Part shown: piece by piece, positions 2,766 through 43,308 of the stretch | How the letters are laid out: every line of letters begins with the position of its first letter | Numbering within the stretch: position 1 is the first letter of the stretch | NCBI GenBank assembly: GCA_025738555.1 | Contig: JAOVFP010000001.1 | Coordinates: 5,518,001 to 5,582,000 of the forward strand | Direction: 5' to 3' | DNA length: 64,000 bases | DNA from: Cyathus striatus | Taxonomy: Eukaryota; Basidiomycota; Agaricomycetes; Agaricales; Nidulariaceae | Notes under the pieces: generated by a model | The model's input: only the letters and a program-made list of their open reading frames with translations | Told to the model about the DNA's origin: nothing | Database searches by the model: none | Program-made: the position numbers and the translations under genes

Positions 2766-5700
2766 TCAGAGAGCTCCATTCTCTGCTTCCCAGATGTTGA
2801 GTGCCACAGTGTCATTGATGTTGTGTTTAGGCATCCACTGGTCATGTTCTTTCCCAAATCTGATCCAACGAACAAGGTATTAGCTCCCTCGACCTTGGCG
2901 CCATGTGTTGACAATGCGGTCAATAACATGTTCTTCGTATCCATTGACGAGAGTGGCAGGTGGTGGGACTAGTTCGTGGCTGGGGAAAAGAGCTGGGTCA
3001 TTGGCAATGAATGGTTTGAGTAAGCTGGCATGGAATCCAGGGAAGGTCTGGGGGTCATTTGGGAGCTGGAGGGTATGTTCTGATTTCTCAGGGAAGGTGT
3101 GGATGACAGTATAGGGTCCTTCATGTCTGGGCATGAATTTAGCTATGTGTTTGGTCTGTCATTTATAGGTGTGTCGCCAGTTGGATGTGGAGAGCATGAC
3201 CTGGTCCCCAACATTGTAGATGACTTCAGGGCCTCAATGTTCATTTGCATGATATGCCTGTCAGACTTTGGCAGCCAGAAAATTGTCTTGGGCATCCTGA
3301 ACATCTGTTTGGAGTTGTTTGATGAGTTTGTGCACCTGTAGTTCATGTGCTGAAGCATCCATAGGCGGGGAGGGGGCTAGAGGAGGAATGAGTCTTGGAG
3401 AGTGTCCAGTCTTGAGCTGGAAGCCAGAGAACCCAGTGGATGAGTTTATTGTGTTCATGATTGCAAAACGAACACGGGGTAGCTGTGCTAGCCATCCCTT
3501 CTGGTCCACATCCACATGGTAGCGGATAAGTTGGTTAATGGTCTTGTTAGTTCATTCGCTGCTTCCATCAGTCTCAGGGTGATATGCCATGGACATCTTC
3601 AGCTGAACTCCGGTAAGCTTGTGGAGTGTCTTCCAAAGATCCGAGATGAATAGTTTATCTCTGTCAGAGACAAGGTGGAGCATCAACCTGTTTTCACAGT
3701 ACCATTCATTGAATAGCACCACTGCAATTTGTGCAGCTGTGAAGGAAGAGTGAATGGCAGTGATACATATGTCTGCTCCAAGGGCATCAGTCATAGTGAG
3801 GATTGTGTCCTTGCCGCCTTCCTCAGGTAGTGGTCCAATAAAATCTAATGCAACAGTGTCGAAACGTGTGTCTGGAACAGGGAGGGGATGTAATGGACTA
3901 GCAGGTTTTGTAGTACGGCCCTTGTTGCATTGGCATTCTGTGCAACCTGGGATATAGGCAGCCTCCAAGTCCCTTCACATATTTGGCCAATAGAAGGATT
4001 CGCGCAGGGAGGCATAGCTTTTGTCAAACCCAAAGTGTCCAAGCGAGTCATGAGCAAGGCGATAGAGAGCTTCACAGACTGGGGTATTTCATGGGATAAC
4101 AAGACGGCAGCCTACATATAGTAGGTGAGTGTCTTCATCTTCCCTGGTGCCCTCAATGCTGCCAGCCGCAATATTGGATAGCAGTTGTTTGCAGAAGTCA
4201 TCAACCAAATATCCAGCTCGAATGTTGTCAAGGAGAGAGGGGTCCATGGAGATGTCAAGTACACTAGCAGTGAGAGTGGAGAGAGGTGGAGAGTGGGTAT
4301 ATGCAAGTGCACACACAGCTATTGTGGGAAGAGGGTCCAGGTCTGGCATGTGGGATAGGGCATCAGCCACATCGTTGTCTTCACCACAAATGTATGTGAT
4401 GTCATAGTCATAATCAGCTAAAAACATAGACCAGTGCATTTGACGATGAGACATGTCCTTCTGGGACTGGAAATACTCCAATGTGTGATGGTCAGTGAAA
4501 ATGTCAAAGTGTACCCCAAGGAGGGAAGAGTGCCACTTCTTTAGTGCTTTGACAATAGCAAGAAGTTCCTGTTCATGGACAGGGTAATTCTTCTCTGCAT
4601 CATTAATCTGGTATGAGTCATATGTGACTGGGCAAGAGGTTTCCCAAGTCTCTCCAAAGCTGAGAACTGCACCTGTGCAACATTTGCTTGCATCTGTAGT
4701 GACAAAGATGTGTTTGCTGGTGTCAGTATAGTCTATTGTTGTGAGACAGTCAGAGCTTGTCACTATCCTCTTGATCGCATCAAAGGCAGCCTGGTGTTCT
4801 GAAGTCCAGGGGGGGAAGGATAAGTTGCAAGCTGCAGTGGTGAGTGGTGTGAGAATGCTAGTGTATTCTGCCAAGGCAGGGAGGAAGGCTGCGATGTATC
4901 GGGTGAGTCCTAAGAATCCATGGACATTTGTAGCAGTTGTTGGCTGTGACCAGTGGACAATGCAATCAATCTTTTGCAGGTCAGGTTTGATACCAGTGCT
5001 CGAAATGACATGTCCCAGGAAACTCAGTTCAACCGAAAACAGTACAGTCTTCTTGACATTGCAGTAGAGCTTGGCAGCCCAGAGTGCTTCGAGAACTTGG
5101 CAGCAGTTGATCTCATGTTCCTCAATTGAGTTGGACCAGATGATGATATCATCGAGGTAGACATGGCAGATCTCACCTATGAGGTCTTGGAGGGCAGCAG
5201 TCATGCATCGTTGGTGAGTGGAGGGAGCGTTACAGCCTCCCTGAGGCATAACTAGCCACTCATATAGACCCCATGGTGTGCAGACAGCAGTAAGGTGTAC
5301 ATCGTCAGGGTGAACACAGGTCTGGAAGAATGAGTTTGTCATGTCTAATTTACCAAAGATTTTTCCTCGTGCACAGTCAGCCAGGATGTCATCTACTTGG
5401 GGCAAGGGGAAGTTGTCCCGAACAGTGTTCGAGTTGAGGTCACAGTAGTCATTCACCCAACAAGGGTCAACAGTGAGATCTGGTACACCATCCATGTGTT
5501 TGGGTACACAAAAAGCTGGTGAAGAGTAAGCAGAAGAGGATGGGCACATGCGTCCTGCCCGCAGATGTTCATCCAATAATTTCTTCCAAGATTCTCGATA
5601 TTGCTTGGGAGGGGAATAGCCTCAGTTACAAGGTATCTTGGAAAGGTCCTTGAGATGTATGTGATGATAAATGTCTTCAGGTAGATCCTCCCCGGCATTG

Positions 5701-8460
5701 TCAGGTAGACAATCAGGAAAACAGTCTGCAAATTCTGCCTTCAGCTGGCTATCCTTATCAGTGAGTAGCTGTTGAAGAGAGAGTGATTCTATGTGATCAC
5801 AGACAAGAGCAATAATGGTCTGGGGCAAGAGATATCCTGCCAAGACAGCAGGCTTCTCCCAAATGTGAGGAGGATGAACCTTCTTTGGGGTAGGTGGAGG
5901 AGTGATCCTCTCTGGTTGCCATGTACAAGGGGGAGGAGAGGGAGGAGTGAGTAAATCATATCCTGTTCGCTTGTCAATAGCTGTTCATGTGTTCACATCA
6001 ATCACGACATGTTCAGCAGCAAGGAATGTCATTCCTAATATTAACAGTACAGGGAGACCAACATTAACCTTCGCCTTAACTGTACTCAACTTCCACATCC
6101 CATTCCCAGATGTCAAGACTATCTTCACATACTCTGAACATTGCAAGGGTTCTTGAGATAGGGAGGAAAGATTGTCCTCCATGACAGGAAGAGGATATCT
6201 TCGTAAGCCCAGCTCATCAGCAAGCAAGGAGCTAATTACTGTGGAGGGACATCCAGTGTCAAGTAGTGAAGAGACAGTGATAGGGAACTCAGAAATGGAA
6301 GGGCCAGTGATATCAAGGTTGGCATAGAAATGTGGAATGGAGAATGAAGATGAAGGGAATATGTACAAGTCTGTATCATTGTCCTCAACAACAGAGACCT
6401 GTGTAGTGCCAACAATTATCTGTGGAACAGCTGTCCTCGCCATGGCTTCAGTGAGTGGAACATAAGAAGATGGATCCAGCCAGGTGTTTGTCTTCTTCAT
6501 GGGACATGTATCTGAATGATGGCCAGCATAGAACATCTGGCAACATCCACAACCTTCATGTTCATTGAGAAGCTTCTTCTCCATGTCTGTGAGCTTGGGG
6601 AGATATGAGACCTTCTTTTCCGTTGTGGAGGTCGATGTGTTTTTGGTGGGAGGGTCCGAGAGCCTTGATTGTAGGTCCTTCTTCTCCATGCATCTTGTAT
6701 TGTGTACAGACTGAGCTTGGTCAATGAGGCATTGGGTATGACACCGTTCCCCACGTAAGCAGTTGTCACATTCAGCAACTTCCTGAGCCCATTCAGCAAA
6801 GTCGGAACCAGTGCACAAGAGATCTTCATCCTCAATAGAAATCTTGAGATCATTGGCCATGTTCGCTTCAATGTGAGCCTTGAGTGTGGTGAGGCGACTG
6901 AGCACATGGGTGGGGGAAGTGGTGGTCAAGATGGCATTCAAATTCTCAAGCTCAATCTTCCAGTCCATGAACCATTTAGAACCTTGGGCAGATGAGAGGA
7001 TCTCGTTTCGAATTTTCATAGCCCAGTTCCTTGGGAGCACCAGTGATACACCTTAAAATATTTAATGGTTAAATCTCTTTATTTGTCATATAATATTAGA
7101 ACTCAGTATTAGTAATGCACATCATGAGTACAAGGGTTGGGGCGAGTCCTGAGTTGCCAATCAAAATGTTCTATTTTGAATATATTACTAAGGGAATGGA
7201 ACATCTGAGAGCTGGGGTTGAGTCCTGTACTGCCAGCAGAAATATCTAATTGATATATACTAAAGGAAATATAACCAGATGTGTGTTATCTAATTACTAG
7301 AGTCCAAAAGACTATGTACATGCACCCAGTACTTGATTGAAACTTAGCTAAGGAACGTGTTCCGCATTCTTGTCACGTGATCAAACACGAGGTGTTAGAA
7401 CCGTTATCTCCGAACTGGTTATTGCAGCTACGCATAGACCGGAACAAGTCATGTGACTTTGTACTTGTACTCTGAGAATATCTCACTGTTTTAATCTACC
7501 ACATGGAATTCCACATGTATGGTTGCTCTCGCATGGTCAATATGTTAGAAATATCATTATGTTGTCATATAGAGTAGTCTAGAATAGTTCCTTTCCATAT
7601 ATAGGTACTGTACAGTTTTATTTGTAAAAAGATATATAAGGAGGACAGGAATGAGGAGGAAAAGCAAGCAATCCCAGGAGAAATCCTAGGCTTCTTCCAC
7701 TCTAGGAGTGTAATAAATTGGAATAGAAACAATCTGAACAGTATTTGAACTGAGTAGTTTTGAATTTGAAAGAATATTTAATCTATAGTTTCCTACCTTT
7801 ATACTAGTTTATACATTATCTGTGTTTTCTCTCCCTTGAACTTAAAGCCTGTGGTTTGCAATGATTATTTGAGTATTACAATATATATTAGTAGTATTTA
7901 AATACAAATCACAAATTTGGTGCATCACCAGCTTGGAAAGTTCCAACAAGTATGCATCGAGAGTGAGGCCATCGATGTGTGAGGTGTCACCATTATACCA
8001 AGCAACCAGGTGGGGCTCTAGCATGGCATTGGCTACAAAGGAAACAACATCTCCCGGCTTCTTCTCAGCATGCTTGGCAAAGCATCAACAGGTGATCCCC
8101 CAGTTGTAGAAAACAAGAGGATTGATATGACCAGCGGTGAGCATAGGGCATTCCTTTGGTTTGTTGGATACCTTTACTTCCGCAAGTGTCCTGGTGTCGA
8201 GCTCCATGGTGTGGAAGAGAGGAAGGATAGTGGTAGTGAATAAGCAGAGAGGTGTGGGTTCCGAGTTGGAGTCTGTGTGACAGGGCATTCCAAAAGGAGA
8301 AGTCAACATTGGTGATGGTGGCTGTGATGGGGATGATGAGTCTCGATCAGATCCTGAGGAGTCTGGTGTCGAGGGTGTGGTATGTATGTGTAGAGGAGGT
8401 AGGTCTGGTCTTGTGGCTCTCCATCTAGCTTCACTCCTGGTGACGAGAGGTGTTGGTGTG
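2766..8460 (-). pseudogene. gag-pol of Gypsy element 1
   Basis: All parts lie in one minus-strand frame once the insertion at 7044-7927 is removed. In order: gag with ILSSAQGSKWFMDWKIELEN; a zinc-knuckle variant C-x2-C-x6-H-x4-C (near 6515-6560); protease motif LLDTG and ILGM; reverse transcriptase with YLDD (about 5145); RNase H (TDASK, ELLAI, TDHHTLEYF); integrase with LDFIG, SDRD and ETDGSSE; and a chromodomain (VIDRIVNTWRQ and YLVRWIRFGKE) at about 2800-2920. In-frame stops include TGA at 8082, 5985, 5622, 4089, 3969, 3549, 3258, 3210 and 3135, and TAA at 2880. Where the family consensus is clear (for example SSE-stop-TN, NM-stop-RDLE), the lost residue is Arg. It cannot make a full polyprotein. 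Confidence 0.88.
7044..7927. mobile_element. LTR-like insertion (possible solo LTR) in gag
   Basis: The gag frame is cut between codons reading ELSKLV and LPRNWAM. The 884-bp insert begins TGATACACC and ends GGTGCATCA, imperfect inverted termini of LTR type, and is bordered by CCAG on both sides (CACCAG if the overlap is counted). Inside are a TATATAAGGAGG box near 7630 and a TAATAAATT signal near 7710, as in an LTR. No second copy was found in the window, so a solo LTR is inferred. Confidence 0.6.
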
Positions 8461-8503
8461 GAAGGGGTGTATCAAGACAGATTGATTGAAGTCAAAAAAA
8501 AAG

Positions 8504-8851
8504 TGAAAGGCTGTTGTGTTTCAGCAGCCTCACTGGTGGTTGAATCAAATGTAATGTGACTGGGTCAAGGTATCTTCATTGCACATAGTAAGAATACAAT
8601 ATAGTAGATAGAAATAATAGAAACACACCTTCGTTGCACGTAGTAAGAATGAGCAATGAAGATGGGGGAGAAAGGGTTTATATATGAAAAAAGTAGAGAA
8701 AAGTGGAAGTGATCAACGAGTCATGACTGCCCAGTGGGCCATCGCGTCGGGATGATGTTTGGTCTTGGATGATACTTGAAGAGCGGCATGTGTTGGCACG
8801 TTGGTGGTGAGACTGGAAGTGAGTATTGGATATGTGAGTGCCAGGCTTACA
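8504..8851 (-). repeat. 5' LTR of Gypsy element 1
   Basis: 348 bp, partner of 2388-2734. On the minus strand it contains a CATATATAAACCC TATA box about 180 bp from its start. Confidence 0.9.
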
Positions 8852-9123
8852 TCGCTTAAGGTTTAGAAAAATAATCTAGGATTCTAAACACAGTGGGAAG
8901 TCACCCAATAAGAACTCACACATACACATTACCATGCAGGTGCCTATCTGCTTCCTCTCAACTCGGGATTCTCTCTAGTCTACTAGCTTTATTTTCCTGT
9001 AGCCTGTGTTCTCAAACTGTTTTCAGATTCTTACCTCATCTGTTCCGGTGAGTATTCAGAGTCCCATGCTACTATATGTCATTTACTCTATGTGACTTCA
9101 GTTGTCAGCTCCGGCTTCCGACC

Positions 9124-12100
9124 ATGCCAGATCACGAATGTAAATACTGTGAAGAACCAGCAACAAAGCAATGTTCAGGATGTTCTAAAGTCTGGTATTG
9201 TGGCTCTTGTTGCCAGAAGCTAGATTGGGATTCCCATATATTCGATTGTAACCCGCAATGTCCTATCAACACCACTCACCACCTTGCTCATGCCGCACAA
9301 CATCATATTCGTCTGGAGGATCAGCAAACTCTTAATGACTTCGGTTTTTCGAAGGCATTTACATCTCACAACATGAGCATGCTCATGGGGCTATATATCA
9401 GGCTCATATGCATCATTGAAATCCCTTCGAAGTCTCTGCATAAATGGAGAATTGAAGGCAGATTGATTCCAGAAATCAAAGCTGTGTATAGCAAGATCCC
9501 TGTCAATAACAGAGGGGAATACTATGTGTGGTTCCTAAAGAATCAATGGATATTAGACAATTCAGTTCCTGCTCCTGGTGACCCAATGCTAGACATGTTT
9601 CACCATGGTTGGGAGTATGCTGGGGGTGAGGGAACTGTTAACTCTGCAGAGGAAGGCAAAAGTGCGATTAATACATGGCCACCTGAACGACACACTGTTA
9701 GGATTTCGTTACTTATCTAATCTCTTATCTAATCTTATCTATGTCACGTGATTAGTCACATGACCTACAATGCGAACACCATGCATATCAACATATGTTA
9801 CTCATCATAACTGTGGGCACAGTTGCACAGTTCGGCCATACGTAGTACATGAGTTCTTAATGTAGAAGCATAGTAAACATGTGTTGTAGTGTAGGCTAAT
9901 TACATGCAGTTACTTCATGGTTCTTTTCTATAAATACAGTCTTTCTAGTCAGTAGTTTGTTATTCTTGTGCTAGTTTATTCCAGATTAGCAATAAGACTC
10001 ACTTCTCTCTCACATTTGAGTGTTTAAGTTTGGCTTCGAGTATTTTGCTCATCTGTCGCTAACAAAAGCACAAGAATCTACTCATTCCTCGACCCCGAAC
10101 TTCTTCTTTCTCTCGCTGAACCCTGGCAAAACTTCTTTCTACACCTCGTTCCCTGTCTTGGACCTCTTGGACCAGATGTACACTCCATTCGATAGACTTG
10201 ATCGTTGTACTTGGAAGTACGAGAGGACTGGTGTAACATTGAGCCCGACACTGTCCGAATTACTGATCATCTAAGGCCCTCTGCCTTAAGTTTGGCATGA
10301 CGCTGTCGTTCAAGGTAATAGATACCTTAGGTGTTCGGCAGGAAGTGACTTTATTCGTACCTAGCACCTGGGGGTCGAGGGATACCGATCATATGTATTC
10401 CTGCAAACTCCTATGATATGGGATGTACAGTAAAGACTGTAAATGGGCAATGAACTGTGGGGCTTTGCTAGGTTTGCTTAGAACTTGGCCTGTGACTGGT
10501 GTGGTACAGCAAAGGCTGTAAATAAGAGATGAACTGTGGGAGTTTCTAGAGTATACGGCTAAAGCTGTATATGGTAACAACAACTGCTAGAAACACTAGG
10601 AAAGCTTGTATGTACAGCGAAGGCTGTATATAAAGATTGGTGCTGTGGTGAAGGTCGAAACGAAGTTGAGGGCCTTGGTTGTTTCTGACTGTAGCTTGGT
10701 GGCTGCAGCGCATAAACTAATATGTGCTGTTACTGAATAGATATGATAAAAAGTGACGTTGAGATTCGATACGTTGAGTTGAGCTGCGTTACGTTGAGTT
10801 GAGTTGAGTTACTTTGATATTACTGTGAATTTATTTATATGGTGAGTTGTGCTGTGTCATTTACGTTAATAATAGAACTGAAGAAAAGCACAATAGATTC
10901 TGTATCTAATGTGTAAGAATAACTACTGGGGATGGACTGGTGAGTAAGATCCTAGCTAGTGACAGGCTATTTGGTAATGGATAAAACTACTTTCTAAGGC
11001 TCAATTCCTCTCCCCTTTTATGCTCTTTTCCTCCTACTGCTGACTAATCCTATCCAAAACCAATCCTGCATTGTCCTTCAAATTTGGTAATGGTGGATCC
11101 ATTGTCTTGAGGTGGAGGCTGCGCAGAACAATGGTGTTCAAGGAGATGAGTCAGGTCTTGAACAATGGTGACAGAAATAGTATCACATTGTTCTGGTGAT
11201 GAACAATGGAATTCTATTTATAGATCCCAGCAAACAATGGGCATGAAGACAATGGGTGAATAGGAGGACATTGTTCTGCACAATGGGTGCAAAAGAACAA
11301 TGGAGTCCTATTATTAGAAACAATGGCATAACCTTGGTAAGCGAATGCATAGGCATTGTTCTGAACAATGGGTGTGAGGAACAATGGGGTTCTATTATTA
11401 GAAACAATGGCATGTCCTTGGTAATCGAATGCATAGGCATTGTTCTTGAACAATGGGTGTGAAGAACAATGGTGTCCTATTATTAGAAACAATGGCATGT
11501 CCTTGGTAATCGAATACATAGGCATTGTTCTTGAACAATGGGTGTGAAGAACAATGGTGTCCTATTATTAGAAACAATGGCATGTCCTTGGTAATCGAAT
11601 GCCTAGGCATTGTTCTTGAACAATAGGTGTGAAGAACAATGGTGTCCTATTTTTAACGGTATCGATTATTGGTCACCAAGAAGTTGGGTATTGGCTTGTG
11701 TTTTCCATATGTTTGTTTCTTGAGAAGCAGTGCCTCATGAGAATTATTTGGTAGTGTATTTGGAAAGATCCAGATGATGTGGATTCCGGACATCGGGCCA
11801 TATAGCCATATGTGTGTGTTTATGACTAATCAAGTTTCACCCACAACAACGCCAGTGACTGGGGAGGCTACCATGTGTTGCCCCAGCTGGTTCTATCTGC
11901 AAGAAAGTGTGTGTGAAACTTAGGACGTCTCGCTAGTTTCTGAGCATCCTCAAAAGCTTCTGATACTCGATCTATCACAGTGGCACCAATTACTCGTTCC
12001 CAAACCCTTCGATCCCTCCAATCCCGATCCTATCACATTCCATCCACATCCATACCTCTTTACACTCCTCGATCTCGCCCTACTCCCTATTCCCGTCCTC

Positions 12101-15100
12101 AAACTCCAAGAGCCGTGTTGGTGGACTCCGACGACTTGGATTTTGATCCTAACTCCTATCTTTCCCTTCACCAAATCCTCGACTACACACCACCATCACT
12201 TCACCCCAGACTTCCTACTCCTCCTCCTCCTTGAAACCTTAGAATTGTCACCGAACCCGGACACAACAATAGTCTGAGATTTAGCACCCCAACACATTAC
12301 ATATCCCCATTTGAACGAGATTTCTATTCCCCATTAGGATACAAAACTCTCATTAATACTGTCTGTAATGACGGAAAAGAACTCCCCTTCCCCAAATACC
12401 CTGATAACCCTGATCTATAATGATCTCCGCCGAAATTATCCTTGGCTTTATCACAGCCATAGTAATGGTCTTTATGAAAGATGAAATAGTAACCAGATGG
12501 ATGAACATGACTCCTGCCAACAAGCAGTTAGTCACAGAAAGTGTTTCTGCAATGACTTAAGGAGTCATTAAGGAAATTAGAGATGGAATTAAGGAGGATC
12601 GACTGGAACCAAAGGAAAAGGTCAAAATCCCGGAAGATTATGAAGGAGATCCCCATACGGTTAATAATTGGATTAGACATATGATGCTATACTTTCAGGA
12701 AAAGAATATTACAAACGATTGGAAAAAGATAACAATCACTTTACCAAAAGTAAAAAAAGGAAAAGACAATAGGGCCCAATGATGGGCAGACATGTTTTTA
12801 GGAGATTTGATCTTGTTCAATGAAGAATGAGCTCAATGGAAATTATTACATGACGGAAAGGAACCCACTCTTCAGAACACCCAGAAAGTCGATATCCCAG
12901 CAACAGAAACATCCCCAGCAATTGTTCATGATGCATTTAAAACAAGTTGTCCATTTGCCAATTGGAACACGTTTGTTGAAAGACTTCAATTCTTCTTTAT
13001 ATCCACGGAAACTCAGAATAACGTGATCGAACAAATCAACAAAGTCATACAAGGAACATGACCTGTTGAAGACTATACAATTGATTTCATGCAATGGATG
13101 AATTTAACTGGATTTGACAACACAGCTTTAGTAGACAAATACCAACGCGGAATGCATCCATTACTGGCTAGAAGACTTATGGAAGTCGGAGGACTTAAGG
13201 TCACTGACAAACTTATCAATTGGGTTGACAAAGCCGCTGAATATGAAAGGAACCACCAAGAGGCTAATTTTGGACGTACTCAGCAGAATTCTCACCAACA
13301 GAACCAGAACTTCAGATGACCTCAAAATAACTCTAACCCTGGAACTCAACAGAACCAGAACACGCAGCAGAAGACACCCGATCACTCCAATCTCACGGTA
13401 TCACAAGGTGGTAATCATATGGATCTCAACCAACTTAAAAAAGAAGGTCATTGTTTTTATTGTAAAGAGAAAGGACATATGTCCAACACATACCCCAAGA
13501 AACCACGCAGTCCTTATGTACAATGTAATATAAACATGGACAATTCTATACCTGTAGCCTCCACTAGCGGAGTAGTAGAACTACCAGATGTAACTAAATT
13601 ATCAGAAGAGCAACGTGCTCTCCTCATTGCTCAATTGGGTTTTCCCCAAGGCCAGCAGTGAGCACAAACTCGCCGGCCTCATTTTATGTACCTTCTAATG
13701 TAACTGTACCTACGGTAGATCTGGAATCGAAATACATATCATTACAGAAAGAAAGAACTAAACACACCTTCCCTAATCAGGAAGTAAAACCTGGAAACAT
13801 GTATTGGGTCGCACGGAGATTAAAAGACCAAACATCGGAACTTGCCCTTGCCACATTAAGTATTTGGACACACCCTAAATGAAGACTTGAAGTAATTCCT
13901 AAAACAATCATGGAATTAAATAATCTTTCAGATCAAGATGTAATTCCTGCATTGGAAGAATTAAAAAGACCTAAATGATTCATCTGAGGAATGAATGGAA
14001 ATCAAATGGATCTTGATTTAATGGTTACTACTCTAGACACACAAAGGACATACGGATTAAAAGCATTATTAGATAGTGGAAGTACTGGAACTTGTATTAG
14101 TCGAAGATTCATTGAAGAGAATCAAATCACGACTAAAAGGTATCCAAGACCTACACCTGTTTATAATGCAGATGGAACCCTTAATAGTGACGGATCTATT
14201 ATGGATTATGTTGAACTAAGAGTACGACTTGGATGACATGTGGAAATATTACAACTGGCAGTTATAAATCTAGGGAAAGCATCTATGTTCATAGGACATG
14301 ATTGGCTTCGAACTCACAATCCAGAAATAGATTGGAAAAATGAGACTATTAAATTCACACAATGTCCGATTGAATGTACCCCATTGATTAATACTATGGA
14401 CCCTGAAGAAGATGAATCTGATTTAGATGAACAGATCAATCTTGAAACAGATGATCATATTATCACAGTAAATATATTCAAACAAATCGAACTAAGAGCG
14501 TTTCAAACCACAGCTTCAAAGATTGCTGAAGCTCAAAATCAGCAAAAACCAAAAAAGCATTGGAAAGAAACTGTTCCGATGTATTATCATGAGTTCGAAA
14601 GAGTATTTGCAAAGGAATCATTTGATAAACTTCCTCCTCATCAACCATGGGATCACACTATAGAACTATTACCCAGAGCCACGTCATTCGATTGTAAAAT
14701 TTATCCGTTAAATCTGGATGAACAGAAACAACTAGATGAATTTCTCAATGAAAATCTTAATTCAGGACGTATCAGACCTTCGAAATCACCCTGGGCCTCA
14801 CCATTCTTTTTTATTAAAAAGAAAGATGGATCTTTATGACCAATCCAGGATTATCGAAAATTAAATGAAATGATGGTTAAAAATAGATACCCATTACTGT
14901 TAATTCAGGAATTAGTAGATAAACTTAAAAAGGCACGATACTTTACTAAGTTAGATATCCGATGGGGCTACAATAATGTCTGAATCAAAGAAGGAGATGA
15001 GCAATACACTGCTTTTCGAACCAATTGAGGACTATTTGAACCTTTAGTCATGTTTTTCAGCCTTACCAATTCTCCGGCAACATTTCAGACAATGATGAAT

Positions 15101-18100
15101 GATATATTCAGGATGGAGATTAACAAAGGAACAGTGATTGTATACATGGATGATATTCTCATATTTACGGAAACATTAGAAGAACATAGAAAGATGGTAA
15201 AATGTGTTCTTAGGAAACTAGAACAACATGAATTATATTTTAAACTGGAAAAATGTTTCTTTGAAAAAGCAGAAGTTGAATACCTTGGACTTATTATTTC
15301 TAAGAATTCTGTACGAATGGATTCTGGGAAAGTAAAAGCCGTAGTTGACTGGCCAGTTCCAAATAATAAAAGAGAACTCCAACAATTTCTAGGATTTATT
15401 AATTTCTATCAGCGATTCATTCAAGGATTTGCAAAAATAGCAAAACCACTTCATGAATTAACCAGAAAAAATGAATGGAAATGGGAACTAAATCAGGCTT
15501 TAGCATTTTCCAAACTGAAAGACAAAATTATATTAGCACCTATCCTTGCAATCCCAAATGATGATGGAAAATACTGTGTTGAAGCTGATTCCTCTGATTT
15601 CGCAAATGGAGCTATTCTATCCCAGGAACAGATAGATGGAAAATGGAAACCAATTGCATTTTTATCACATGCTTTAAGTCCAACTGAAAGGAATTATGAA
15701 ATCTATGATAAGGAAATGCTTGCAATCATGAGAGCACTTGACACCTGGAGACAATATCTTCTAGGAGCACGACAAATCTTTGAAATCTGGACAGATCATA
15801 AGAATCTTCAATATTTCAGGAAACCACAAAAATTAAATCGCCGACAAGTGAGATGGTCAACTGAATTATCTGAGTTTCACTATACATTACATCATAAACC
15901 CGGAAATCAAATGACAAAAGCAGATCTACTATCTCAAAGAGCTGGACACAAACAAGGAGAACATGATAACGAAGATATTATTCTTCTTAAACCGGAACAC
16001 TTCAGACAGACTTATGAAGTTCACGGTGAAGATGAAGATATAATGGAACAAGTTCGAAAGTCCAGAAGAAATCGAGATAAAGAAGTCATTAAGATGCTTG
16101 ATTTGAAATCAAAAGATTGGAATGAATCCCCAGAAGGAATAATCACATGGAAGGATCGAGTTTACATTCCAAAAAATGCCAAATTAAGGGAACGTATAAT
16201 TAGATTATATCATGATTCAGCTATATCTGGACATCATGGAGAATATAAAACCCAGGAATTAATCACAAGAAACTATTGGTGGCCTAGAATAAGATCTGAC
16301 ATAATCAAATACATATCTGGATGTGAGGCATGCCAAAGGACAAATATTCATTGATCAAAACCAATTGGACTATTAAACCCAAATAGTATTCCTGAAGGAC
16401 CTTGGCATATGATATCAATTGATTTTGTCGGACCACTTCCCTATTCCTGAGGATTTGATTTTTTAATGGTAGTCATTGATCGATTTACAAAAATGGCAGT
16501 GTTCATTCCATGTAATAAAGAAATCGACAGTCCAGGCATTGCAGAACTATATTTAGAAAAAGTATTCAAAAACTTCGGTATGCCACAACGTGTCATAAGT
16601 GATCGAGGATCACAATTCACATCTCATTTCACAAAGGAATTTACAAAACGATTAGGTGTTAAGATGAATTTATCAACTGCATATCAACCCCAAACAAATG
16701 GACAAGTAGAAAGAGTAAATCAAGAGATCGAACAATATCTCAGGATTTATGTAAACTACAACCAAGATGATTGGGCTGATAAAATAGCAGTAACAGAATT
16801 CAATTACAATGACACAATACACAGATCAACAGGATATATGCCATTCTTTTTAATGTATGGACATCATCCTTATGGTGGAATTAGACCAAATGGAACATCT
16901 CGGATAGTTGGTGTAGAAGAATTTATTACCATGATAACAAAGGCCAGAGAAAACACTAAGGCAGCTCTTACTCTATCAAATGAAGCCATGAAAAGAGGAT
17001 ATGATAGAAATAGAAATGAGTCACCTGAATATAAACCTGGTGACCTTGTTTACATGGAAGGAATTAACATTAAATCTGATAGACCGGTTGCAAAATTAGA
17101 TGACAAACGATACAGACCCTTTAAGGTAATAAAGAAAGTAGGACTTGCTTCTTATGAAATACAATTACCGAAAACATGAAACCAAAAACATCTGACATTT
17201 AATACACAACTTCTCATGAAATATATCCCTGCCCATTATAAATCACAACAGAAACCGAAACCTCCACCTACTGTTGTGATTGACGATCAGGAACAATATG
17301 AAGTGGATACAATTTTAGCCTGGAAAATAAATCAGAAAAAGGTTTTATACAAGATCAAATGGAAAGGCTATTCTTATGATCATTGTACATGGGAACCAAT
17401 TACATCATTAACCGGATCTAAAAGTTTATTAAATAAATTCCATTGGGAAAATCCAGAATGCCCAAATGTATAAATATCATGAACTCTTTCATAAATTAAT
17501 AACCATTAAAACATGCTCTCTAACAACATCACTCTTTTGATCTATGTTATTGTCATCTTCATTCTCTGTATGGCTGTATTCATACTTGGCCATTATATTC
17601 CTCAAATCATACTCCGAATTCAAGAATGACCCCCACGACCAGAAGAATCAATTGAAATGTCATGAGGACATGACTCTTAAAGGGGGGGTAATGTTAGGAT
17701 TTCGTTACTTATCTAATCTCTTATCTAATCTTATCTATGTCACGTGATTAGCCACATGACCTACAATGTGAACACCATGTGTATCAACATATGTTACTCA
17801 TCATAACTGTGGGCACAGTTGCACAGTTTGGCCATATGTAGTACATGAGTTCTTAATGTAGAAGCATAGTAAACATGTGTTGTAGTGTAGGCTAATTACA
17901 TGTGGTGACTTCATGGTTCTTTTCTATAAATACGGTCTTTCTAGTCAGTAGTTTGTTATTCTTGTGCTAGTTTATTCCAGATTAGCAATAAGACTCACTT
18001 CTCTCTCACATTCGAGTGTTTAAGTTCGGCTTCGAGTATTTTGCTCGTCTGTCGCTAACATGCACATGCTTTCTCTTTTGTATGCTGATTTTGTCACAGC

Positions 18101-24075: not shown

Positions 24076-27000
24076 TTATGAGGGACTCCATGATGTCACG
24101 GTGGACGCAAAGCCATTGACATTCTTCGACTGATTTATAATTCCGTTGCTGTTGACACTAAGTTGATTTGTGGTCGCAACCGTTGATAAACTGTAGATGT
24201 TAACAGACGACGTAGAGTCGATGTTAGCAATTTGAGCTTGGCAGTTGTTACTTGTCAGGCATGTTTGAACGTAATCCTGAAAAAAAGAGATGGTAATTAG
24301 TATAACAGGAAATGCTTGCCTACAGCTAGCGTAACGTACTTGGAAGAAGCTGTAGAGACCAGCGCCAAAGATTAAGATATTCTGAGAGTTCTTCACCCAG
24401 AGTGCCCATGCAGAGGGATTGCCACTGTATGGTGTAGGATCGTTGAAAGCAGAGTTGATGAGGAATGGTGCAGGTGAGACTGGATTGGGTTGGAAGTAGG
24501 GCTGTAAAGTGGTAATTGTAAGATCTTATGCCAGCTGAAGTCAAATTAAAATGAACGAACAGTTTCCGTTTGGATTAATCCCATGTAGTGGTTCTTTGCG
24601 TTAACCAAGCTATATTGATATAGAACATGGTGCTCAGCTGGAGGCAAACAGCGTCAAGGCACCATAGAGCTTAAATAAACTATAAACTAACCTGCGGTCC
24701 CGATAAGCCAAACAGGCCCTTGAGATTCGGATAATATTCCTCGGCCAGAGTAAGTTGAAATTTGGGATTTACCATCGCCATCAAGATCGTGGTCGGCATT
24801 CCACACCCAGGTACTCTCGAGATATGCCGAGGATGAGGTCGTAAGGTGAATAGCAAGGAACGCTGCGAAACAATTGTTTCCCCCGGCACCAGATGTAGGG
24901 CACTGTGCGGCTTCGAGATTCGTCCCAGCAGCTAAAAAAAGTTAGCATTAGGAATTCTATGTTCTAAAGACGGATTTATGTTACTAACCTCCAGCAAGCC
25001 TGAAAGGAAAGGAATCAGCCAGATGTATAGTAAAATTATGATGTTATTGAATACCTAACGTGAGAGCTGAACATCGCAGTACCGCCCTGTTGACCCGAAA
25101 GCTCCTGCACGTTCCATTCCAAAACGATCGCACCAGCGGCTGATGGAAAACGCTAAGCACCGAAGTCCGCATAATATACTTGAAGACACCCACCAGGGCC
25201 GACCGTAGTGAAAAGCATGTCGCTAATCTCCATGATACCCTGCGAGCCAGCATCTCCAACACGAACAACGACCTGAGGATTGTTGAAATCCTGGAAAGCT
25301 GATCCTTTACCCGCTATCACGGTCCATGCCTCACCGACAATTTGCGTTCCAGCGGGAATAGTGATCGTAGACGTTACGATATATGTTCCAGCGTCGAAGT
25401 AGATAATTTTGCAACCAGAAAACTAAATGGAAGCACAAAGAGACACCGAAGTCAGTACGTCTTCTGGTTTGGAAGTGGAGATATTACCTTAGCGAAGATG
25501 TTCTTTAGAGCCGCCGTATCGTCGGTCTTTCCATCACCCTTGGCTCCTTGGTCTCGTACACTGACAAACTGGCTCACAGCGTAGTTTTCGTACTGGGGTT
25601 GCGCGCGGTGGAATATTTGACCAGCACTGTTCAGCAAGCTCGAAGCCTTGTTCGGGGCCGGAATAGACCCTTGAGTGAATACGCCATTTGAATTAGTGCC
25701 TTTGTACACGTTTCCTTGTCCCCATGAACTGATTGTTGTGGTTCCTCCTGCCAGGACGGTAGCACCTCCAACGACTCCCACTGCAACGGGGACGTTGTTG
25801 AGCTTGATGTTGTTCAGAACCAAAGAGCCTCCAAGTTTTCCATTGCTAGCAGTCGATGTGCGGAGGAAGATGGGCGTATTGGTGGCAGTTCCATCAATAA
25901 TTGCGAGTGCACCAGTAGTCTGTGAGTCCTGAGTTAAACCACCTGTTGCAACGTCAAAGCCAACCTAAACGAACGTTATCAGTGAATGTCATGTCTAACG
26001 AGTTGCTCGATGCCTTACTTGACAGTTGTTGAAAGCTACACTCTGGTACGTCCAACCCCAATTCCAGAGACTGTAGACTCCAGTTTGAGCATTGTTGATG
26101 GTGATATTCTTCACGGTAAACCTGTTTCCATAATTAGACGAAATAACGTTATCTCTGATGACGAAGACTCACTGTTGATTTCCGCCCCAGATACCAAATT
26201 TGCCTCCGTTGAATACCATGTCGCCCATATATCCGCCGCTACCGTTCTCCATCCAAATACCTTGATGGGCAGTATTTGCAGCGGTGGACATTTGGAACAC
26301 AATATTTAGAAGTTGGGTCGCTTGCGAGACTTGCCAGTGGATACCAGTACCTTGGGAATTCGTGGCTGGCACCCTAGTAACATCGATTACAAAATTTCTA
26401 ACCACGCGGAAGCTACGTTTATATGTGTAAGATAAGAATAGACCATGGGTATGACATGACTCACAAATTGTTCTGGTTGACCCAGTATTGTGCACCGCCG
26501 CCACCAGGAATGTAAGGGTCGGCGTCTGATAGGCGTTAATTAGTTGCCACCGTAGCAGATTAGATAAATGAGGGCACCAATGACTGCCATGCCAGCAAAG
26601 CTCGCTGCAGCAAGGAGAGTGGGGGGTTTTCTGGCATCTCCGATAAGCTGTGTATAGTAAAAGGGAATGATTGGTGTCGTGATAAGATAGGTTCTATATT
26701 AAAGCTGTTAGGATCTCTCCAAGTTTCAGTAATCTATATAGCTACGTACCCTTGCGGAAAGAAAACGACGGCGGGAGATACACTGGAATAAGTGAATAAG
26801 TACGGCGAGTGTTGAAGGGAGAGACCTTGACATACGTTGACGAATCGCAGCCTAGACCGCAGCGGTTTTGGGAGCTGATCGCAGCACTAGAAGCGCATGT
26901 TAGCCTCAGTGATGCCATGGGTATGAAAGAAATGCGTACTTGATAGCTGCAGTGTCATCGTGTACACCGTCACCAACGGCTCCGAAGTCCTTTCGGTACC

Positions 27001-34938: not shown

Positions 34939-35181
34939 CTGAACGTACGTACCTCTATCCCCCAGCAGTGCCTGGTGCATTTCTCCTATCCGTTCATCTT
35001 TATCAGCTGGTATTATCCGTCCCCCTCTTACTTCATACGATTACTGATAGACGTTCGTTCTTTCATAGACATAGGGCCGGTCCCTTCGCAATCCACTTAA
35101 AACTTTGTACGTCTACTCCCATTCTCAAATGCACCGCCTAACCATGCCTTCCATTAGATATATCAATCTATCTCAAACAAC

Positions 35182-37223
35182 ATGCGTTCTTCCGTCCTCG
35201 CTTTTGTCGTCTGTGCTATCTACGCTTCTCGTGTAGCAGGTGCACCACTGGTCGTGTGTATCCCGTTTATGCACTATCGTTCCTGTGGAGCTGACTATCC
35301 ATCTAGAACCTAAACAATGCTGTTGAAGCCCGATCTCCTGGACGCGGGGGTCGCTTGAATCTTCATGTTGGGCTTCCTCCCATTAACATTGGTTCGCCTC
35401 CTGTAAGTTTGTTTTCTACATGATCACTGGTGTCATGTAATACTAACATGGTATACTTTTTAGCCTCAGCAACGCTCTTTTGACAACATCGAGGCCCGTT
35501 CTCCCCACGGAGGTCGCCTGAATCTTCATGTTGGTCTTCCTGCCATTAACATTGGTTCCCCTCAGGTAAGAATTGATTTGGTCATATAACTGCTGCGATG
35601 CAATCATTTTAACATGTTATCTCTAGCCTCAGCAACGCTCCCTTGACGATATCGAAGCTAGAGGACGTGGTGGATCCAATCGTCACGTCGGTGTTCATAC
35701 TTGCTTTACGCCTGCTTTAATGCTGAATACTTTATAGCACAAACGAGCTGTCGCTGACACGGAAATCGAAGCACGCACTCGAGGTAGTCTAATAGGCGTA
35801 GGCCCCATGCCACACCTTCACATTGGTATTCCCAACTTCGATCTTCATCCTCAAGTTAGTCTCTCTCTCACTTTTATACCCGACGCACGCATTAAATAAT
35901 GCACAAAAACTTTTAGCCTAAGATAGCTCGTTCTTTTGATGGCTCTGAAGAGCTTGAAGCCCGAACTCCCCGTGGTGGCTTCCGGGGTTTGGGCCGCCGT
36001 CCAGGTAGCGCACCTGTAAGCACCTTTGCTAATTGCTAATTATCATGCTGAATGCTTTGTACCCAGCCTCAGGAGCGCTCTTTTGACGACATGGAAATTG
36101 AGGCCCGTTTCCACAAACTAAGCGGATTCCGCATGCCAAAACTACACCTCCCGAGTTACGATATCAGCTCTCCACCTGTTAGTGTTCTCACTTTTCTAGT
36201 ATATATGGCCCAGTCATAAATTTTGCTTGAAACCCTGTAGGTTCAATCTCGTTCCTTTGACGAAGAGCTCGAAGCACGAACTCCCCGTGGTGGCTTCCGT
36301 GGTGGATTCCGAGGTATGGGACGCCATCCCAGTGCACCCGCCCCCGTCAGTTTCCTCTTAGTCTAATGTTCACGATAGTACTGAACACTTTGTAGCAGCA
36401 GCCTCAGGAGCGCTCTTTCGGCGACATGGAAATCGAGGCTCGTTCCCCCAAACTGCTAGGTGGCGTCCGCCTTCCAAAATTGCATATCCCTATTCCTACC
36501 TTCGATCTTCAATCCCCACAAGTAAGTCTTGCTCGGTTTGATACCTATGTCAGATTCATATATCTTTGTATCAAAACCTGTAGCCCCAGTCTCGTTCCTT
36601 TGACGAAGAGCTCGAAGCACGAACTCCCCGTGGTGGCTTCCGTGGTGGATTCCGGGGTATGGGACGCCACCCTAGCGTACCTGCGCCTGTCAGTTTCCTC
36701 TTTGCTCGATGCTTACAGTCATACTGAACACTCTATAGCAGCAGCCCCAGGAGCGTTCGTTCGACGACATGGAAATCGAAGCCCGCTCTCCTAAACTGCT
36801 ACGTGGTGTCCGCTTGCCAAACTTGCACATCCCTATTCCTACCTTCGATGTTCCAAGCACACCAGTAAGCCTTGCCCACTCTGATATCCATGCCGCACCC
36901 ATATATAATGCTTCCTATAGCCTCAGCTCCGCTCCTTTGACGAAGAGCTTGAAGCACGAACTCCCCGCGGTGGCTCCCGGGGTCGCAAGGGAGGGCATCC
37001 CAGCGCACCTGTCAGTATTTTATTTTGCAGAAGCTCAACGTCTTTCTGAACGATCTATAGGTCGAGGCTAGGGCTCCAAGAGGACGTGGGGGACGTCACG
37101 GCGGTCGTCGTGGTGGTTTCAAAATGCCGATGGCTGCAGTAAGTCTTCACACAATCGTTAATGGCCACTATTCAACTTACATATAATTCGCAGCCCCCTA
37201 CTGACGCACCTGCTGAGCAGTAA
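35182..37223 (+). CDS. Secreted cassette-repeat peptide precursor (KEP/RiPP-like)
   Basis: Fourteen exons, every intron phase 0: 35182-35253, 35307-35402, 35464-35565, 35627-35686, 35738-35854, 35917-36015, 36067-36177, 36241-36345, 36396-36521, 36584-36688, 36739-36864, 36921-37010, 37061-37138, 37194-37223 (438 residues). Exon 1 is a signal peptide (MRSSVLAFVVCAIYASRVAG). Each of exons 2-13 holds one EAR, usually ending an acidic spacer such as ERSFDDMEIEAR. Exons 6, 8, 10 and 12 continue with Gly/Arg-rich cassettes (TPRGGFRGGFRGMGRHPS). Exons 7, 9 and 11 carry amphipathic ones (SPKLLGGVRLPKLHIPIP). Exons 2, 3 and 5 have LNLHVGLP or LHIGIP. Dibasic KR/RR occur in exons 5, 6 and 13. The plan resembles secreted fungal precursors cut by Kex2-type proteases into many peptides; products could be cyclic peptides, antimicrobial peptides or signals. 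Function is inferred. Splice sites were placed by eye; intron 1 and intron 4 donors are the weakest. Confidence 0.8.
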
Positions 37224-37406
37224 AGCTTTAAAGGATTGATGGTAGATAAATAGTATTCTCATGTAAAATATATTTGAATTACCGGTGGGGATGCAAAATT
37301 GAATGTATGTCCAGATGAACGTGTTAAGACATCTTGGAGTGACAAATGCCATTTTGCGACGATTCAGCGTGATTGCGATTGTATATATTCAACAAAAAAC
37401 ATTAGT

Positions 37407-37506
37407 TGTCGGTAGCTGGAATCGAACCAGCGGCTCCTCGGATTCATGTAGAATTCGCCTTGGGACACTCCACAACGAGGTGATTTAACCCCTAATCGAT
37501 ACCGAC
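37407..37506 (-). tRNA. tRNA-His(GTG) with a 28-nt intron
   Basis: The minus strand folds as a full cloverleaf: acceptor GTCGGTA/TACCGAC, D-arm GATT/AATC, anticodon stem CCTCG/CGAGG, T-arm GCTGG-TTCGATT-CCAGC and discriminator A. With the intron in the usual place after base 37 (plus 37442-37469) the loop is TTGTGGC, so the anticodon is GTG. The B box GGTTCGATTCC is perfect; the A box is atypical (C at position 9). An adenosine discriminator fits eukaryotic tRNA-His. Confidence 0.8.
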
Positions 37507-37756
37507 ATGACATTTAACCGGTAATGTGTCTATTCGAAGTGAGGATAAACTTACATACTACTAAGTACTTGCTCAGAAGATGTGATCCAAAAATCATTCC
37601 CATAAATTTAAAGTACATCATGCGTCGCTTTACCATTGCTATAATGCTAATAATGTAAAGTACTAGTAATCGTGTCGTAAAAGGCAGAAGAGCAAAAATA
37701 TTTCGAAGTTCGTAAGTACACACACGTTGAAAGCAAAAATAAAATAGTAGAAAATA

Positions 37757-38601
37757 TTATATGGTCTCGTTATGCACTACACTACCCTTCTCCGAGCTTG
37801 TCTTTTCCACTGTTTCTGTCTGAGATGTCCGGGGTGCGGTTTCTTCTACTGGGAATGTCTTGGTGGACTTTGTAGATGCGTAGAGGAGGGTGAGCGCTGC
37901 AACGGTGATAAAGAACCATCCAGGCCAGATGCATCCCAACAACAATTTAACTAAACCCCGTATCAGTGCATCCAATCTCTACGACAGGATGAAAGAATGA
38001 CTTACGATACCACTGATCCTTATACACACTCGAACTCCCCAACTTCTGCTCCAACGCCTTGATAATATCATGCGACAACTCAGTCGGCCCCAAAAATGCA
38101 CGAACTTTCGCCTCGCGCGTGTTGAAAAATAGTGTATAGGGGATGTTACATGCCAAAATCCATATCGAAAAGAACAAAAGGATGAGTCCTTGGATGCGCA
38201 GTGTGCGGACGGCGAAGGGGCGAGTGCGGGGTGTTATCATGAGTAAGACGAATTTGGAGATGAGAACGGCGGTGAACGCTGTTATGGCTGTTAAGACTAT
38301 GCCGACGTTTAGTATATCTATAAGGGGTATGTTAGGATGCATGTGGTGGTAGAGAGAGGGAACAGTGTACCGCTGGTATTAATGGTGATAACGGTAGGAG
38401 AAGATACTTTAGACTTAATGGCGCTCTTTTGCTGGTTTGATTTGACCAGCGCGTTAAGGCCTATCAAAGTAACGTCAGTACCTGCAACAACAAAGTGAAA
38501 AAAAGAATGGACGCACCGACACATGCAGCAAGGACAGCAAACACCCAAGCCACAACAAGGACCGTAATACGAGTCTTGAAAAGCGGTCCAGACGACATCA
38601 T
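37757..38601 (-). CDS. Four-helix membrane protein, paralogue 1
   Basis: Exons 38517-38601, 38371-38460, 38006-38317 and 37757-37950 give 226 residues, all introns phase 1. Four hydrophobic helices are visible: one at the N-terminus (VLVVAWVFAVLAACV), two in exon 3 (around GIVLTAITAFTAVLI and LILLFFSIWILACN) and one in exon 4 (GWFFITVAALTLLYA). The tail is hydrophilic. It shares exon lengths, intron phases and motifs GLNALVKSNQQ and GSSSVYK with the gene at 42425, so the two are duplicates. The family is not identified; the layout recalls small fungal tetraspan proteins. Confidence 0.75.
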
Positions 38602-42424: not shown

Positions 42425-43308
42425 ATGGCACTAACAATCCGCGACAGACGCTCTGCCCCACTCTGGGGTCTGCGCTTGATCACTCTGTTGCTCGCGTGGG
42501 CATGGGCTATTATCGCTGTTGGAGTCGGTACGTTCTATCTGAGTATCATAAAAGATCTGTTGGCTGATAAAGATCACAGGTCTGAACGCACTGATTAAGT
42601 CCAACCAGCAACAGACCAGGCTGAGGAATCAAGTGCCAGCGGGGACAACTCTCGATATTAACGTTAAAGGTTCGTCTTTCTCTCCCCTTCCTTCCCCCTT
42701 ACTCACCCTACCCCACAGATGTATTCAACACAGGCGTAATAGTAACAACAATAGCAGCATGCATAGGCGTCCTAACCACCGTCCTCCTCCTCCTCCACCT
42801 CCATCGTCCGACACTCCTCACATCCTCACTCAAAATCCAAGGGTCCATCCTCGCATTCTTCACAGTATGGTTATTCGCTGTACAAGTAGCATTTACGCAC
42901 TTCTTCCGCACACGCAGTGCAGGCGTGCGAGCGTTCATAAATGGCCAGGAGTTGCCTAGCAGCATCGTGCAGAGCGTTGAGAGAGGATTAGGGTCAACGA
43001 GTGTGTACAAAAGGATTTCGTACTGTAAGTCTTTGTCTTCTCGCCTCTTATTTCCTCACTTACTAACCAATCACACAGTGCGCCTAGTCGCAATCCTACC
43101 ATGGTTTACAATCCTCTTCTCCCTCCTTGCCACTACAATGCTCTTTAAAGCAGCCTCCCGCGCCCGCAGGGCGTCCACTGCCGTCTCTCCCACGAGTGCC
43201 ACCGAGACACGCGGGACAAATTCTGGCGAGGGGATGGTGGAAAAGGATAGGGGCGTGTCGACTGAGAGGGAGAGGACTGTTTCTACGGAGAAACGTGCTG
43301 ATGCTTGA
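42425..43308 (+). CDS. Four-helix membrane protein, paralogue 2
   Basis: Exons 42425-42527, 42580-42669, 42719-43024 and 43079-43308 give 242 residues with three phase-1 introns at the same places as in the gene at 37757-38601; exon 2 is 90 nt in both. Helices: LITLLLAWAWAIIAVGV, GVIVTTIAACIGVLTTVLL, SILAFFTVWLFAVQVAF and VAILPWFTILFSLLATTML. A polar loop contains GLGSTSVYK. The C-terminal tail is charged and rich in Thr/Ser/Glu. Function unknown; the pair probably arose by an inverted local duplication. Confidence 0.78.

Follow-up and report, generated by a model that had tools for sequence, protein, structure and literature searches.

The gene at 35182-37223 on the plus strand of the window (the whole stretch of 64,000 nucleotides of Cyathus striatus DNA analysed here) is probably best explained as a precursor that would be cut by a Kex2-type protease into about 12 peptides, which would then be trimmed and would play a defence-type role. 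The parts of this explanation carry different weight. Processing of the precursor into several peptides is very likely. An antimicrobial or defence role for these peptides is a tentative proposal that falls somewhat short of an even chance. The initial annotation had already suggested a secreted precursor of many peptides, with an acidic spacer and two or more kinds of cationic core, and both the layout of the gene and the charges of its predicted pieces argue for it.

Gene structure

GT..AG splicing predicted from the DNA alone gives 14 exons, a spliced length of 1317 nt and a product of 438 aa, in agreement with the 14-exon gene initially drawn over this interval. The gene (hereafter the main gene) runs from an ATG at 35182 to a stop codon that ends at 37223, and its 13 introns are 50-63 nt long, every one in phase 0. 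All exon coordinates given below refer to the plus strand. Exon 1 (35182..35253) encodes the signal-peptide-like segment MRSSVLAFVVCAIYASRVAGAPLV. This hydrophobic start, a putative secretion signal, matches four places in the host assembly (107 Mb, 24 contigs): the main gene and three paralogues, called par2, par3 and par4. The main protein matches no Pfam family above the cut-off (best E 0.18).

Exons 3 to 12 encode one cassette apiece, composed of a front site, an acidic spacer, EAR and a cationic core. Exon 2 (35307..35402), with the first EAR site and the GRGGRLNLHVGLPPINIGSPP core, and exon 13 (37061..37138), with a VEAR site free of any acidic run and an RGG-rich core, include EAR and a core but not the acidic spacer of the other cassettes. 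Exon 14 (37194..37223) supplies the PPTDAPAEQ tail and the stop. The front site is QQR in both exon 3 (35464..35565), which has the spacer SFDNIEAR and a Gly/Leu-type core, and exon 4 (35627..35686), which has the spacer SLDDIEAR, a short GRGGSNRH core and a weak GTCGGT donor. Two types of core then alternate over exons 5-12. The A-type, rich in Leu, Pro and His (for example, SPKLLGGVRLPKLHIPIPTFDL), occurs in exon 5 (35738..35854; dibasic HKR front, spacer AVADTEIEAR), exon 7 (36067..36177; SFDDMEIEAR), exon 9 (36396..36521; SFGDMEIEAR) and exon 11 (36739..36864; SFDDMEIEAR). The B-type (for example, TPRGGFRGGFRGMGRHPSAPAP) occurs in exon 6 (35917..36015; spacer SFDGSEELEAR, RGGF core) and, with the spacer SFDEELEAR, in exons 8 (36241..36345), 10 (36584..36688) and 12 (36921..37010).

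An upstream element, GGGCCGGTCCC, lies within A[CT]AGGGCCGGTCCCTTC at 35074..35084 (+), 108 bp 5' of the ATG. It is shared with par2 (L009:4316) and par3 (L030:4787), whose upstream DNA is also like that of the main gene; par4 has neither the element nor this likeness. The shared element may belong to a promoter or 5' leader that the three genes have in common.

Repeats, spacers and cores

The main protein contains EAR 12 times and the spacer start RS[FL][DG] nine times. In 20,000 shuffles of its mature part, EAR occurs 0.23 times on average (maximum 4) and RS[FL][DG] 0.08 times (maximum 3), so that both of these initially reported counts stand far above the shuffle maxima. The initial annotation had also counted 12 cassettes with acidic spacers. 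This is right for the EAR sites, but the acidic spacers number 10, since the first EAR comes after the signal region and no acidic run accompanies the last one (PVEAR). When the protein is cut in silico at both spacer ends, it yields 10 spacer pieces with a charge of -1 to -3 and, after the first EAR, 12 pieces with a charge of +2 to +4.

The repeats are DNA duplications (for example, 300 nt at 83% identity, spanning exons 8-9 and 10-11, with exon 10 the duplicate of exon 8 and exon 11 that of exon 9). The alternation of A-type and B-type cores would thus derive, at least in part, from duplication of a two-exon unit. Exons 8 and 10 are 89% identical and exons 9 and 11 are 83% identical, compared with 74% and 61% for the respective following introns. 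Across the two exon pairs, the codon differences are synonymous in 20 cases and nonsynonymous in nine, where random change would be expected to give approximately 2.5 to 4.2 nonsynonymous differences for each synonymous one. From the higher identity of exons than introns and the synonymous excess, the main gene looks constrained at the protein level. The constancy of its spacers is at least equal to that of its cores: the spacers differ by no codon, synonymous or nonsynonymous, in exons 8/10 and by four synonymous and one nonsynonymous in exons 9/11, while the core plus tail differs by eight and two, and by eight and six, respectively.

The description of the cores as 'amphipathic' is not borne out if helices are meant. 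For the 12 main-gene cores the helical hydrophobic moment has a median percentile of 42 against composition-matched shuffles, which is ordinary overall; two B-type cores reach percentiles 91 and 92 and the remaining 10 of the 12 lie below the 75th. Overall, amphipathic helices are thus not supported as a description of these cores.

Putative cleavage sites and proposed processing

The extended Kex2 motif LxxR has Arg at P1, Leu or another aliphatic residue at P4 and a variable P2 (excerpts of PMC8528282). The initial annotation recognised no match for the EAR spacer. The spacer is nevertheless not alien to Kex2 processing: [LIV]-E-A-R fits the extended motif, and the front edge of the spacer is dibasic in some cassettes and relatives. 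Each of the 12 EAR sites in the main gene has I, L or V at P4. Their P2 residue, Ala, does not belong to the five best alternatives named for this position in the excerpts of the same source (PMC8528282).

The preference at P4 is not confined to the main gene. We define an acid-preceded Arg as one with at least three D/E in the preceding eight residues and no K/R in the last three; Arg in the first 25 residues, par2 and the deposited Cyathus protein P0001 are left out of the tallies. P4 is L, I, V or M for 26 of 26 acid-preceded Arg in the main gene, par3 and par4 versus 9 of 98 other Arg, and for 71 of 85 versus 11 of 95 in seven proteins from other sources (P0002-P0008; see below). In these seven, the same aliphatic tally is far lower at the neighbouring positions (1/85 at P5, 3/85 at P6, 19 at P3 and 8 at P2), which places the signal at P4 of the Kex2 motif. 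Their back sites vary widely at P2 and P3 (LMER, LDAR, LIAR, LEMR, VFDR), and the common feature is therefore a protease-type motif and not one frozen word.

The front site is a single Arg in nine of the 10 main-gene spacers. HKR replaces PHAR/QxR in 1/10 spacers of the main gene and 3/11 of par3, and RR is found at the front edge of at least one spacer in each of P0002-P0007. The main protein holds one KR and two RR in all, of which only the KR (HKR, exon 5) is at a spacer edge; par3 has three KR and par4 has no dibasic site.

The best reading of these sequences is that the spacer would be cut at both ends by a Kex2-type protease of the secretory pathway, after (Q/H)xR or KR/RR at the front and after [L/I/V]-E-A-R at the back. 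Such double cutting would release about 12 cationic peptides of 11-31 residues. A Kex1-type carboxypeptidase would presumably then trim the basic C-terminal residues, and an STE13-type peptidase may remove leading X-Pro pairs, which follow the cut site in 9/12 cases in the main gene, 1/11 in par3 and 0/9 in par4. Until cleavage, the acidic spacer would probably hold the cationic cores neutral. At least two loci of the genome match the kexin P-domain (exons were searched apart, so that more may exist), and there are matches to DPPIV_N, a family that is not specific for STE13. Three kex2 genes are described in C. cinerea and other agaricomycetes (PMC9769878, Discussion, in excerpt), and the products of Coprinopsis repeat proteins made in Pichia have been read as possible single-Arg cleavage (Vogt et al., PMC9769878, in excerpt).

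Paralogues

The first paralogue, par2 (L009:4408-6455; C8:12407 to about 14455), lies 12 kb from a contig end with telomere repeats. When examined exon by exon it has RGG-rich cores in most exons. Its frame is broken as assembled, since exon 2 (L009:4634-4728) measures 95 nt by GT..AG splicing. The second, par3 (L030:4897-6396; C1:5507897 to about 5509396), is located beyond the window, about 45 kb upstream of the main gene, and has 11 cassettes with GRGGYNR-like cores (exactly GRGGYNR in 8 of the 11 cores tabulated). The third, par4 (L042:4567-5153; C18:331567 to about 332153 or slightly beyond), consists of one long exon with nine identical GRSGYNR cores and does not have the SFDD spacer start.

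The paralogues provide a natural contrast, as the core is held and the spacer drifts in par4 and par3. Pairwise comparison of the nine par4 core copies gives 79 synonymous and no nonsynonymous codon differences; for eight copies of the spacer the figures are 50 and 95. In par3 the contrast is weaker, with 153 synonymous and 38 nonsynonymous differences in the core and 110 and 165 in the spacer. All of these pairwise counts overstate the evidence because repeat copies are not independent. Counted by distinct types, the par4 core has eight extra codons and no extra residue, and its spacer 20 and 11. This pattern indicates that the product is the core, with the spacer serving as a loose tag for processing. 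The inference draws on par4 and par3, given that the main-gene spacers are at least as constant as the cores.

Likely relatives in other fungi

The closest match listed, P0001, is a Cyathus striatus hypothetical protein of 439 aa that is 95% identical to the main protein over 100% coverage and has the same layout. The gene, initially called 'undescribed', is so for its function within the literature searched; its protein had already been deposited. In one short stretch P0001 reads HPAHLRLS where the window (36584-36864) gives HPSVPAP, which points to a local difference in frame or splicing, either between strains or between annotations. The AlphaFold model of P0001 from its single sequence has a mean pLDDT of 41 and no confident fold.

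A phmmer search with the main protein finds P0002 (Flammula alnicola) at 8.6e-3. With P0002 as the query, P0001 (4.3e-10), P0003 (4.7e-10) and P0004 (1.2e-8) are obtained, and a profile of P0001-P0004 adds P0005 (1.2e-42), P0006 (2.6e-25), P0007 (Psilocybe cyanescens, 1.5e-10) and P0008 (5.6e-3); P0003 and P0004 are missing from the output of this search although they form part of its profile. The list is a lower bound, as the searches scored the 7988 and 7995 candidates that share most words. Among the matches listed, the likely relatives come from Flammula, from Psilocybe and from short JGI contigs. That the Cyathus genes are kin to P0002-P0008 is likely from the sequences and not proven, because acidic repeats can inflate scores and the link depends on P0002.

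The relatives have acidic [LIVM]xxR spacers in common and quite different cationic cores (for example, SPGVRSWLRNKFRG, EPGKFGAVFRVAKGLVRKHGHHAQ and EPFMGMNHAGRWLRKKFGHGH). By eye these cores look like host-defence peptides. Their helical moment against shuffles is mixed, with medians from 34 to 93, and an AlphaFold model of P0006 with five relatives (pLDDT 52, like that of P0001 too weak to use) has low-confidence helices in some cores. A search of the host genome for helix-type cores of the relatives, run without a positive control, found nothing. The C-terminal ends of P0002-P0007 resemble one another in an acidic tail (YDELD, FDELD or YDDLD), which the Cyathus proteins do not have. The main gene would represent one branch of a mushroom family in which the spacer code has been kept and the core changed.

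Comparison with known systems

In Candida, Kex2 releases several peptides from the single secreted polyprotein Ece1, as we propose for the main gene; Ece1 differs in having dibasic sites and one main active peptide. We know of no acidic spacer in Ustilago Rep1. This protein also comes from a basidiomycete and is a Kex2-cut repeat protein, but its peptides form surface fibrils (excerpts of PMC8528282). The K2PP effectors share the extended LxxR motif with the main gene and differ in that a single pro-domain is removed from the effector and there are no repeats (excerpts of PMC8528282).

Kex2-processed repeat proteins (KEPs) start with a signal peptide, to which the hydrophobic start of the main protein would correspond, and share with it near-identical units in tandem, intervening basic sites and possible STE13 dipeptides (excerpts of PMC6339444, PMC7329392 and PMC9769878). 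As expected of a KEP, much of the main protein is taken up by three or more similar repeats (12 EAR sites and 10 acidic spacers). However, single-Arg [LIV]EAR and QxR/HAR sites delimit the units; of the KR, RR or KK expected between repeats, the main protein has only the KR of exon 5 at a spacer edge, and par4 has none. The main gene looks functionally like a KEP but is not one by the published definition through dibasic sites, and is to be regarded as a variant of that kind. It also alternates at least two kinds of core, whereas only 79 of the 1193 KEPs surveyed had two or three motif types (excerpts of PMC6339444).

Insect apidaecin pre-pro-polyproteins likewise include many cationic peptides with a short processing spacer (RREAEPEAEP-like), have core variants within one precursor and are encoded by several genes, usually on different chromosomes (excerpts of PMC11549390). 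That the apidaecin spacer is acidic is our own reading. Apidaecins differ in their unrelated sequence, Pro-rich cores, conserved C-terminus, dibasic site and demonstrated antibacterial action (excerpts of PMC11549390). Inspection by eye shows no Pro-rich core with a PRPPHPRL end in the main gene.

The 2019 KEP pipeline cut fungal secreted proteins in silico at KR or RR, or else at KK (excerpts of PMC6339444). Since the main sites of this family are [LIV]EAR, members with few dibasic sites would probably be missed or wrongly divided by that method. The spacer is described nowhere in the titles and abstracts of the papers listed, and the family seems barely studied in mushrooms; the supplementary tables of the KEP surveys may mention it. 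A more speculative idea, to which we give roughly one chance in three, is that the Agaricales have a large unrecognised class of multi-peptide polyproteins with a single-Arg [LIV]xxR and acidic-spacer code, which is kept while the cores (RGG-rich, GRxGYNR, WLKSKF-like and His-rich) freely diversify, so that all of them make up a modular system of defence peptides. If so, genome mining based on dibasic sites has mostly missed this class. If processing is confirmed, a single extended motif would open secreted cationic-core mushroom peptides to mining and testing.

Possible role of the peptides

Action on other organisms appears the likeliest role, as the cores are cationic, diversified and placed between acidic spacers, as in apidaecin polyproteins. 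Caution against assuming antibacterial action comes from Coprinopsis, where pure cultures of six KEP knock-outs showed no visible phenotype and synthetic KEP-derived peptides did not inhibit five bacterial strains (excerpts of PMC9769878).

Signalling would also suit the short, constant cores of par3 and par4. A precursor of the pheromone kind would release one short peptide in many copies, to be read by the fungus itself or by a neighbour. This reading is rather unlikely. It would account for the identical par4 cores with their purely synonymous changes and for the mostly exact par3 cores, and the X-Pro pairs of the main gene resemble the STE13-like signature used in alpha-pheromones (excerpts of PMC6339444). 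However, the main-gene cores are long and fall into two or more kinds, X-Pro is missing from par4, and the Trp that ends the cores of alpha-like basidiomycete repeat proteins (excerpts of PMC9769878) is absent from the main gene, par3 and par4.

A repellent-like precursor, whose peptides would assemble as a coating on hyphae or fruit-body walls, is improbable. The precedent is Rep1 of the smut Ustilago, a Kex2-processed repeat protein with amyloid-like fibrils (excerpts of PMC8528282), and Gly/Arg-rich and Leu/Ile/Pro-rich cores could conceivably assemble, but the cores are clearly charged. We find it just as hard to favour an intact disordered secreted or wall protein in which the EAR repeats are mere leftovers of duplication. 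The constancy of the main-gene spacers agrees with an intact protein, and the poor AlphaFold model of P0001 would suit any disordered protein. Against it stand the position-specific P4 preference across divergent relatives, the exchange of HKR and RR at the spacer front and the contrast between core and spacer in par4 and par3.

A dikaritin-type RiPP precursor with cyclised cores is very improbable: each GRxGYN-type core of par3 and par4 has one Tyr (11 and 9 in total) and the genome includes UstYa (DUF3328) genes (32 matches), but none of these matches is near any of the four genes (the nearest on C1 is approximately 2.8 Mb from the main gene) and the mature part of the main protein holds a single Tyr. 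The search for nearby modifying enzymes that had been proposed found no RiPP enzyme by Pfam in 20 window ORFs, hand-picked from 130 unspliced ORFs of at least 75 aa to the right of 18 kb, a choice that may have overlooked enzyme exons if small or split. Within this scope, a RiPP cluster was rejected.

Other features of the window

A tRNA-like stretch with a GGTTCGATTCC arm and perhaps an intron is visible by eye at approximately 37405-37510 (-); ARAGORN with bacterial settings reports none there. Two open frames in opposite orientation, 37950-38378 (-) and 42625-43308 (+), encode what by eye look like related small membrane proteins, which share LGSSSVYK/LGSTSVYK stretches and have no Pfam match. 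Open frames resembling retrotransposon polyproteins, apparently from two different elements by eye, occupy 4089-17179. At 25455-26693 (-), a gene for a pectate-lyase-like enzyme is present in pieces (PF12708, E 2.8e-23).
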